A stretch of DNA of 34,148 bases from Candidatus Faecimonas gallistercoris (GTDB lineage: Bacteria; Bacillota_I; Bacilli_A; RF39; UBA660). The notes under the pieces are model-generated. The model was not told the origin of the DNA and ran no database searches. It saw only the letters and a program-made list of their open reading frames with translations. The translations under genes and the position numbers were made by a program. Position 1 is the first letter of the stretch. The number at the start of each line of letters is the position of its first letter. This document shows positions 17,717 through 20,797 of the stretch, in pieces. The stretch covers positions 1 through 34,148 of the forward strand of contig DVGU01000015.1 in NCBI GenBank assembly GCA_018712565.1, written 5' to 3'.

Positions 17717-20047
17717 ATGGCAGATGTTAATGAGTTAAATGAGATGCTAGAAGATGTTATAGTTATTAAAAGAAATGGTAAGAAAGTTCCTTTTGATGGA
17801 GCAAAAATTGCCTTAGCTATAAAAAAGGGATTTGATAGTGTTGAAGTTGATGATGATGAGGAAGAAAAGGAACGTAAATATACATCCAAAGATATTCAAA
17901 AAGTATATGGAGCAGTTTTAAAGAAAATTGAAAAAGATGCCGAAGAAAAAAATAAGAAATTTAAAATAGAAGAAATTCAAGATTATATAGAAAATGAATT
18001 ATCTAGTAAAGGATATAATGATGTCTATGAATCATTTTCTTCTTATAGAGAAAGAAGAAATCAATCAAGAGAGAGTTTCTTCGGTGATAATAAAACACAT
18101 AAGTTTTTAAAATCATTAGAAAATTTAGGACTTAAGTCAGCAAATGAAGAAGATGCTAAAAGAGAAAATGCTAATATTGATGGTAATAGTCCAATGGGAA
18201 CCATGCTTCAGTATGGAGCAACAGTTTCTAAAGAGTTTGCTAAAGCATATCTTATGAAGAAAGAGTATGCAGAGTTACATGATAATGGTACTATTCATAT
18301 TCATGATATGGATTTCTTGGCAATGGGTACTACTACTTGTTGTCAGATAGATTTATCAAAGTTATTTAAAAATGGTTTTGATACAGGACATGGTTATATT
18401 CGTACACCACAAGATATTTCTACTTATGGAGCACTTGCTGCTATTGCAATTCAGTCTAATCAAAATGATCAACATGGAGGGCAAGCAATACCAGCACTTG
18501 ATTATTATATGGCTCCAGGAGTATTAAAAACATTTAAAAAACAGTTTAAACAAACTATTTATGATTTCCTAGATTTAGAAGGTTTTATTCCAGTTATTAA
18601 TATTGATCGAATTATTCGCGAGATTGATAAAGTTGATTCTATTGAATTAAATGTAGAAGATTTTAGTGATTATAAAAAGGGTTCTAGTAGGATTCATGAG
18701 ATTTTTGCTAAAGCTTATGAGAAAGCATTACAGAAAACAGATCGAGCAACACAACAGGCAATGGAGGCATTTATTCATAATTTGAATACTATGCATTCAA
18801 GAGCAGGAGCTCAGGTTCCATTTTCATCAGTTAACTTTGGAACGGATACCTCTCCTGAAGGTAGAATGGTTATTAAGAATTTCTTACTTTCTACTGATCG
18901 TGGTCTTGGAAAAGGTGAAACACCAATTTTCCCTGTTTCTATATTTAAAGTAAAAGAAGGAATTAATTATAATCCAGAGGATAAAAATTATGATTTATTT
19001 AAGTTGGCTTGTAAAGTTTCTGCTAAAAGACTTTTCCCTAACTTTGCCTTTATTGATGCTCCATTTAATTTACAATATTATAAAGAAGGAGATATTAATA
19101 CTGAGATAGCATATATGGGATGTAGAACTAGGGTTATAGGTGATGTTACTTCTCCTGATAATCAAGTTGTTACTAGTCGTGGAAATTTATCTTTTACTAC
19201 GATTAATTTACCAAGACTTGGAATTAAATATGGTATCTGTTTAAAAGAAAGAGATAAAGCAGATATGGATGGCTTTTTTAAAGAACTTGGAGAATTGATG
19301 GATATTGTAAAGAATCAATTGTTAGAAAGATTTGAAGTTCAATGTAATAAACATAATTATAATTTTCCATTTTTACTTGGACAGGGAGTCTGGGCTAATG
19401 GTGAAAAGTTAAAACCTACGGATCGTCTTCGTAAGGTTTGGAAACATGGAACATTGTCTACTGGTTTTATTGGTCTTGCGGAGTGCTTAAAAGCTTTGAC
19501 TGGTAAACATCATGGTGAAAGTGAAGAAAGTTTGAAATTAGGTTTAGAAATTATTAAGTTTATGAGAGAACGTTGTGATGAGTATTCTCGTAAATATAAT
19601 TTGAATTTTACTTGTTTAGCAACACCTGCTGAAGGATTATCTGGTAGATTTACGGGAATTGATAGAGCAATATATGGAAAAATTAAAGGTGTTACAGATA
19701 GAGAATATTATACGAACTCTTTCCATATACCTGTTTATTATCATATTAGTATTACAAATAAAATAGAGAAAGAGGCTCCTTTCCATGAACTTACTAATGG
19801 AGGACATATTTCTTATGTTGAGTTAGATGGTGATACTGCTTCCAATGTTGAAGCTTTTGAAAAAGTTATTCGTATTATGAAGGAAGCAGGAATTGGATAT
19901 GGAGCAATTAATCACCCTGTAGATCGTGATCCAGTGTGTGGATATGTTGGAGTGATTAATGATGTTTGTCCTAAGTGTGGACGACATGAGTTTGAAGGGG
20001 TTCCAATGGAAAAGATTACATCTATTGAGAAAAATTGTTGTAATTAA
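17717..20047 (+). CDS. nrdD: Class III anaerobic RNR, copy 2, catalytic portion lacking the glycyl-radical loop
   Basis: ATP-cone, long NrdD core, terminal DPVCGYVGVINDVCPKCGRHEFEGVPMEKITSIEKNCCN then stop; no RxxGY motif. ATG 17717 preferred (GGGAGG RBS) over GTG 17702. Confidence 0.93.
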   Translation: MADVNELNEMLEDVIVIKRNGKKVPFDGAKIALAIKKGFDSVEVDDDEEEKERKYTSKDIQKVYGAVLKKIEKDAEEKNKKFKIEEIQDYIENELSSKGYNDVYESFSSYRERRNQSRESFFGDNKTHKFLKSLENLGLKSANEEDAKRENANIDGNSPMGTMLQYGATVSKEFAKAYLMKKEYAELHDNGTIHIHDMDFLAMGTTTCCQIDLSKLFKNGFDTGHGYIRTPQDISTYGALAAIAIQSNQNDQHGGQAIPALDYYMAPGVLKTFKKQFKQTIYDFLDLEGFIPVINIDRIIREIDKVDSIELNVEDFSDYKKGSSRIHEIFAKAYEKALQKTDRATQQAMEAFIHNLNTMHSRAGAQVPFSSVNFGTDTSPEGRMVIKNFLLSTDRGLGKGETPIFPVSIFKVKEGINYNPEDKNYDLFKLACKVSAKRLFPNFAFIDAPFNLQYYKEGDINTEIAYMGCRTRVIGDVTSPDNQVVTSRGNLSFTTINLPRLGIKYGICLKERDKADMDGFFKELGELMDIVKNQLLERFEVQCNKHNYNFPFLLGQGVWANGEKLKPTDRLRKVWKHGTLSTGFIGLAECLKALTGKHHGESEESLKLGLEIIKFMRERCDEYSRKYNLNFTCLATPAEGLSGRFTGIDRAIYGKIKGVTDREYYTNSFHIPVYYHISITNKIEKEAPFHELTNGGHISYVELDGDTASNVEAFEKVIRIMKEAGIGYGAINHPVDRDPVCGYVGVINDVCPKCGRHEFEGVPMEKITSIEKNCCN

Positions 20048-20079
20048 AAATAAAATAGAGAAAGAGGAGTGAATTTATT

Positions 20080-20244
20080 ATGGAAAAAATAGTTGGAGAA
20101 GGACAAAAATTTGAAAGAATTAGACGTGTTACAGGTTATTTAGCAGGAGATGTTGATAGATTTAATAATGGTAAACGTGCAGAAGAAAGAGACCGTGTAA
20201 AACATACTGGAATTAAAGAAATAATGAATCAAGAAGGTAAATAA
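20080..20244 (+). CDS. Stand-alone glycyl-radical domain of class III RNR (54 aa)
   Basis: MEKIVGEGQKFERIRRVTGYLAGDVDRFNNGKRAEERDRVKHTGIKEIMNQEGK; AGAGGAG RBS; in-frame TAG upstream at 20056-20058, so translated separately from nrdD-2. Confidence 0.88.
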   Translation: MEKIVGEGQKFERIRRVTGYLAGDVDRFNNGKRAEERDRVKHTGIKEIMNQEGK

Positions 20245-20245
20245 G

Positions 20246-20797
20246 ATGGAGATAAGATTAGCCGCTTATTTACAACCAGATTCTATTGTTGATGGAGAAG
20301 GAGTTAGAACTGTTGTTTGGACACAAGGATGTCCTCATCATTGCCCTGGTTGTCATAATGCTAGTACTTGGGATTTTGATGGTGGTGCCTTGGTAGATGT
20401 TCAAGATGTTATTTCTGAATTGAAAAAAATAAAAAATCAGGATGGTATTACATTGTCTGGAGGAGATCCTGTATGTCAAGCTGATGCTTGCTATGAAATT
20501 AGTAAAGCTGCGCATGAGATGGGACTTAATGTATGGTGTTATACAGGTTTTACTTATGAAGCGATGCTTTCTAATCCTAAGATGAGAAGATTACTTGATC
20601 AAATTGATGTATTAGTTGATGGAAAGTTTATTCAGGAAGAGAAAAGTTATGATCTTTATTTTAGAGGTTCTAGAAATCAAAGAATTATTGATGTAGTAAA
20701 AAGTTTGGAACAGCAACAAGTAGTACTTATTGATAAATATATGAAAGATAAAGATTATAATCAAAGCTATCAAAAACCAGATTATTTATTTATTTAA
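20246..20797 (+). CDS. nrdG: Anaerobic RNR activating enzyme, copy 2
   Basis: CX3CX2C in GCPHHCPGCHN, LSGGDPV; starts 2 nt after the radical-domain ORF. Confidence 0.94.
   Translation: MEIRLAAYLQPDSIVDGEGVRTVVWTQGCPHHCPGCHNASTWDFDGGALVDVQDVISELKKIKNQDGITLSGGDPVCQADACYEISKAAHEMGLNVWCYTGFTYEAMLSNPKMRRLLDQIDVLVDGKFIQEEKSYDLYFRGSRNQRIIDVVKSLEQQQVVLIDKYMKDKDYNQSYQKPDYLFI

Follow-up and report, generated by a model that had tools for sequence, protein, structure and literature searches.

In the class III ribonucleotide reductases (RNRs) described in the literature, the radical glycine and the catalytic cysteine share one chain. Among them is NrdD of P. copri (8p23; PMC11226230), a formate-type enzyme with an ATP-cone; that paper numbers its radical residue Gly711. 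Already known are class II RNRs with the catalytic subunit in two chains, NrdJa and NrdJb of Pseudomonas aeruginosa (PMC4520616), interrupted phage nrdD genes that occupy more than one reading frame (PMC3653736), and stand-alone glycyl-radical domains for pyruvate formate-lyase (PFL), the spare parts GrcA/YfiD and T4 Y06I (PMC8683613). Among open-licence papers, none was found to describe a class III RNR whose radical subunit is a separate chain. The present study concerns a contig of Candidatus Faecimonas gallistercoris (DVGU01000015.1, 34,148 nt, the whole of which is referred to as the window), in which nrdD-2, a previously unlisted open reading frame (ORF) of 54 aa, and nrdG-2 follow one another. 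It is highly probable, at roughly 0.87, that these genes encode a class III RNR that has its radical subunit as a separate chain and is activated by NrdG.

The window's enzyme has the same domain order as P. copri NrdD, with the MGCR finger loop, the beta-A cysteine, the asparagine, the NxN flap, and the counterpart of the RITGYL radical motif. In P. copri, however, one chain holds the radical loop as well, and the radical domain merely becomes disordered with dATP, whereas here it is in a separate gene. GrcA/YfiD and T4 Y06I are likewise small stand-alone glycyl-radical segments, but they are about 14 kDa, while the ORF in the window encodes 54 aa of the PF13597 type, without PF01228, and has a partner lacking a radical tail of its own. 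NrdJa/NrdJb belong to class II (B12), with another split position and another chemistry. The phage genes contain introns, inteins or homing endonucleases, or are fragmented in single phages; they do not represent a conserved separate radical subunit.

Gene structure of the split NrdD

NrdD-2 (776 aa; 17717-20047, forward strand) contains the class III RNR domains PF03477 and PF13597 (E 1.5e-189), with the ATP-cone, barrel, and zinc site, and has no radical glycine. Its catalytic residues are intact, these being the beta-A Cys208, the finger loop M467-G-C469-R, and Asn497, and they are invariant across 50 aligned NrdD proteins; the NxN flap is N151-A-N153. The zinc-site region, DPVC...CPKC (19928-19978, forward strand), is kept on the big chain and has three cysteines rather than four, a form that is identical in fused relatives. 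Just past this site, 22 residues after the CPKC motif, the protein ends in CPKCGRHEFEGVPMEKITSIEKNCCN followed by the stop codon, and its match to the Pfam family PF13597 covers positions 1-533 of 562.

The remainder of the family is found in the small ORF (20080-20244, forward strand), which starts 32 nt after NrdD-2 in a different frame and encodes MEKIVGEGQKFERIRRVTGYLAGDVDRFNNGKRAEERDRVKHTGIKEIMNQEGK. PF13597 is the sole Pfam domain match of this peptide, only at positions 531-562, and it aligns to positions 710-744 of 746 in the NCBIfam model PRK07111; there is no match to PF01228 (Gly_radical) in the window's genome. The two chains together tile P. copri NrdD (8p23), NrdD-2 accounting for residues 56-709 and the peptide for residues 707-740, an overlap of 2-3 residues. 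The predicted radical glycine is Gly19 of the small subunit, encoded by GGT at 20134-20136 (forward strand) and aligned with the RITGYL of P. copri, and thus it is in a different chain from the catalytic cysteine. Like GrcA/YfiD, the 54-aa product is a stand-alone glycyl-radical protein, having its own start codon and its own Shine-Dalgarno sequence, AGAGGAG (with the spacer, 20063-20079, forward strand). The radical-SAM (S-adenosylmethionine) activase of the split enzyme, NrdG-2 (20246-20797, forward strand; TIGR02491, E 1e-46), starts 1 nt past the stop codon of the small gene, not 2 nt as had been given in the initial annotation. That annotation, made from the sequence of the window, had otherwise described this arrangement correctly: the Pfam coverage and the tiling of 8p23 agree with its account of an NrdD-2 with ATP-cone and core but without a radical motif, and the unlisted 54-aa ORF has the position, gap, ribosome-binding site, and radical glycine that it reported.

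Conservation across related genomes

Conservation was assessed in a sample of 196 genomes from the family to which the window belongs, with genome sampling confined to the window's own phylum, and genes were called split or fused from the length of the open frame, a short frame being split and one of about 780-814 aa fused. The peptide is present in 98 of the 196 genomes, split from NrdD in 77 and fused to it in 21 (one of the fused genes lying across two contigs), and its best matches have E <1e-25; a chance match is therefore excluded. The NrdD-2 genes occur in the same genomes as the peptide, and the cases without the tail piece sit at contig ends. The same pattern is seen in 80 named genome contigs, from metagenome-assembled genomes (MAGs) of uncultured Bacilli and Tenericutes including Candidatus Onthousia, and a further 80 metagenome contigs include 64 split, 9 fused, and 7 incomplete genes.

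In each of the 128 split loci the partner NrdD-2 lacks the radical tail, and the small gene starts with ATG and has a Shine-Dalgarno match no shorter than 4 nt. The gap from stop to start is 0-59 nt, nrdG lies at about -20 to +29 nt from the small gene, and nearly all of the small chains are 49-64 aa. All three relative frames occur (47 loci in frame 2, 45 in frame 0, and 37 in frame 1, a tally that includes one fused locus, L217, otherwise placed in the fused set). The radical glycine, RIRR, TGYL, FN, K, E, R, H, and both glycines of GEG are invariant in the 128 small chains, and the glutamate of GEG is present in 124. The linker, of which fused proteins have one copy, is present in both chains, EGVP... 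ending the big chain and GEG... beginning the small one. Both pieces are under purifying selection, the pooled ratio of non-synonymous to synonymous substitution rates (dN/dS) being lowest in the core of the big chain (0.17), 0.23 in the small gene, and 0.37 in the tail of the big chain; these values are descriptive, the pairs not being independent.

The window's genome is a 1.29-Mb MAG of 74 contigs. The split is also present in a single-contig genome of 1.3 Mb (G226), therefore it is not an assembly break, and the many independent MAGs and the metagenome contigs likewise reject an assembly or sequencing error. The reservations in the initial annotation, that the break might be a frameshift error, a lesion of a single strain, or a gene fused in all relatives, are not borne out, and the comparison across related genomes that it had called for shows both split and fused genes in the family.

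One genome (G245) encodes this subunit a second time, in a copy whose C-terminus is longer (L171, C1:239418-239552), and the stretch retrieved there contains no match to nrdD. Apparent frames of 170-177 aa, from complete genomes in a different family (f4), were rejected as split genes; they belong to ordinary fused NrdD whose hosts probably decode TGA as tryptophan. In phages, 132 records partly match the 54-aa peptide, none over 80 % of its length, and among the annotated phage matches listed nearly all are inside NrdD genes.

Split and fused states in the NrdD tree

In a tree of the NrdD core, the window falls within a clade of 64 rows, all of them split (Shimodaira-Hasegawa-like approximate likelihood ratio test support 96). 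Elsewhere on the tree fused and split rows alternate, with at least three changes forced by well-supported branches and seven to eight under parsimony; the approximately unbiased test rejects the placement of all split genes in one clade (p-AU 1.9e-7). These changes of state may be repeated splits, re-fusions, or transfers. The fused counterparts in the same family are a classic sign of two chains working together.

Two-chain model and alternative explanations

In the proposed enzyme, both chains would be translated separately from one operon, nrdD - small gene - nrdG. The ATP-cone, the zinc site, and a ten-stranded barrel housing the cysteine for the thiyl radical are on the big chain; the small chain carries just the glycyl-radical loop and the C-terminal segment. 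The small chain is predicted to dock in the barrel at the place that the C-terminal loop takes in fused NrdD. While docked or flipped out, it would receive its radical from NrdG, for onward transfer to Cys469. Complex formation, activation, and catalysis by the two chains are inferred. In the published structures of P. copri NrdD, dATP binding makes the radical domain disordered as a unit (PMC11226230), a behaviour that fits a detachable piece. The two-chain catalytic subunit suggested in the initial annotation is strongly supported by the occurrence of the split over many genera, the selection on both chains, the fused relatives, and its status as the sole detected RNR in many genomes. Class I/II RNRs (PF02867) are above the cut-off in only 3 of the 196 genomes, and split NrdD is the only RNR detected in 41 split genomes. 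Each of these has a completeness of 90 % or more and a contamination no higher than 5 %, and with either window NrdD as query it gives a single NrdD hit, the split one.

Several points weigh against this model. The split system is described here at the level of gene sequences. An AlphaFold prediction was made for a read-through pseudo-fusion of a relative (L035), its single stop codon TAG being read as glycine, and 49 relatives were included. A fold search with this model finds NrdD, with 8p23 as the best match in the Protein Data Bank, but the radical segment has a low predicted local distance difference test (pLDDT) score, about 44-60, against a mean of 71.6 for the model (predicted template modelling score, pTM, 0.67), so that docking is proposed by homology. 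The count of sole-RNR genomes depends upon MAGs and two NrdD queries, which a distant NrdD could escape. In addition, the split NrdD may be dispensable in the window's genome, which also has an intact fused NrdD-1 (12018-14150; radical motif DRMNGYLSY) with its own activase NrdG-1 (14416-14958), 3.5 kb upstream of NrdD-2.

This intact pair is also what favours a decayed or inactive nrdD-2, a broken gene whose work would be done by NrdD-1. Such decay is very unlikely, given that both pieces are under purifying selection, that the arrangement is conserved over many genera, and that 41 near-complete split genomes have no other detected RNR; a pseudogene was rejected on the dN/dS values and these sole-RNR genomes. 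Even less probable is the production of one fused protein by frameshifting, ribosome bypass, an intron, or an intein. Phage nrdD genes are indeed interrupted by introns or inteins (PMC3653736), but in the split loci the gaps of 0-59 nt are too short to hold either, so no intervening element able to splice is present, and each small gene has its own ATG and Shine-Dalgarno sequence. The range of gaps, the use of all three frames, and the linker that overlaps in both chains rule out frameshifting, hopping, or splicing as a mechanism common to these loci.

In a rival explanation, the small protein would exist mainly to replace the radical segment after oxygen cleavage, as GrcA/YfiD does for PFL. 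Glycyl radical enzymes are cut by oxygen at their glycine, and the chemical rationale for spare parts has been described (PMC8683613, PMC12288474); with the radical part permanently separate, an oxygen hit would destroy a 6-kDa chain, not an 88-kDa one. A stand-alone radical protein of the NrdD type is, furthermore, directly downstream of superoxide reductase in four related Bacilli genomes. Against this, the split big chain has no tail, which makes the small chain obligatory rather than spare, and the partner does not have a radical tail of its own to be replaced after damage, as it does in the GrcA/YfiD system. The gene is within the nrdD-nrdG operon and no oxygen-defence neighbour was seen there. 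Replacement as the main role is accordingly a tentative proposal, and of the interpretation offered in the initial annotation it is the two-chain part that stands, while the replaceable, oxygen-vulnerable part is not supported by the location of the gene or by the tail-less big chain.

The truncated chain has a specific tail of its own (19979-20044, forward strand), ending in a cysteine pair (20033-20044), C774-C775-N-stop. At least two cysteines follow the zinc motif in 113 of 128 truncated chains, and CC or CxC is present in 108, whereas any cysteine after CPxC is found in just two fused chains. A cysteine-pair tail serves class I RNRs and some of class II as the reducing arm (PMC9669993), and the pair here might likewise re-reduce the active site, a dithiol having taken the place of formate as reductant with the split; that no PFL was detected in the window's genome also favours this idea. 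It is nevertheless doubtful. The MGCR finger loop and the asparagine at beta-F are the formate-type pattern (PMC9669993, PMC11226230), CC/CxC is missing from 20 of the 128 split chains, and the presence of PFL is unrelated to either the split state or the cysteine tail (Fisher p = 1). The cysteine tail as a replacement for formate supply was rejected on this lack of association.

A stand-alone radical protein in other Bacilli

A better candidate for a spare part is a protein of about 92 aa in other Bacilli, mostly in genomes that also have intact fused NrdD. About a dozen sampled genomes from other Bacilli families encode this separate protein (about 90-95 aa), and the family (L153-L165; P0241-P0360) is widespread, including in cultured Thomasclavelia and Candidatus Stoquefichus and in Longibaculum, Coprobacillus, and other Bacilli; databases annotate it as anaerobic ribonucleoside-triphosphate reductase. 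Its C-terminal residues, about 35, are an NrdD radical tail (FERIRRITGYLVGTLDRFNDAK..EE..RVKH). It is therefore like the 54-aa subunit in having the NrdD radical segment on its own gene, but differs from it in the conserved extra N-terminal domain of about 55 residues, in the location of the gene away from nrdD, and in its usual company of a fused NrdD. The N-terminal domain has a beta-alpha-beta-beta model with no significant match in the Protein Data Bank and a weak resemblance to ribosome hibernation factors. In four genomes (L161, L163, L164, and L165, in G436, G447, G489, and G392) the gene is directly after, or slightly overlapping, a desulfoferrodoxin/superoxide reductase gene. By its sequence, the protein has the features expected of a candidate NrdD spare part. 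The validated spare parts are for PFL only, although others are possible (Andorfer et al.; PMC8683613); if the candidacy is correct, this family would be the first to provide spare parts to a glycyl radical enzyme other than PFL. The combined proposal, that the detachable radical subunit is replaced after each oxygen hit, class III RNR being repaired by re-synthesis of a 6-kDa chain, and that other Bacilli have a second family of NrdD spare parts, is speculative and rather less probable than its negation. Both the split NrdD operon and a protein of the 92-aa type (L169 and L170) were observed in one genome of the window's own family (G283, f1).

Occurrence, annotation, and neighbouring genes

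Split NrdD is a feature of uncultured gut bacteria from one large family, and the split explains the listing of these proteins in databases as truncated NrdDs and unexplained small fragments. A separate radical subunit can be added, removed, isotope-labelled, or mutated alone, which makes open questions directly testable, including the access of NrdG to a buried glycine, the flipping out of the radical domain, and the rescue of oxygen-cut RNR.

Upstream of nrdD-2 is a cluster for nucleotide metabolism (12018-17405), containing fused NrdD-1, an 89-aa ORF (14150-14419), and NrdG-1, together with dUTPase-like and thymidine kinase-like genes, judged by eye. In relatives within the window's clade, NrdD-1 is kept near the split NrdD-2.
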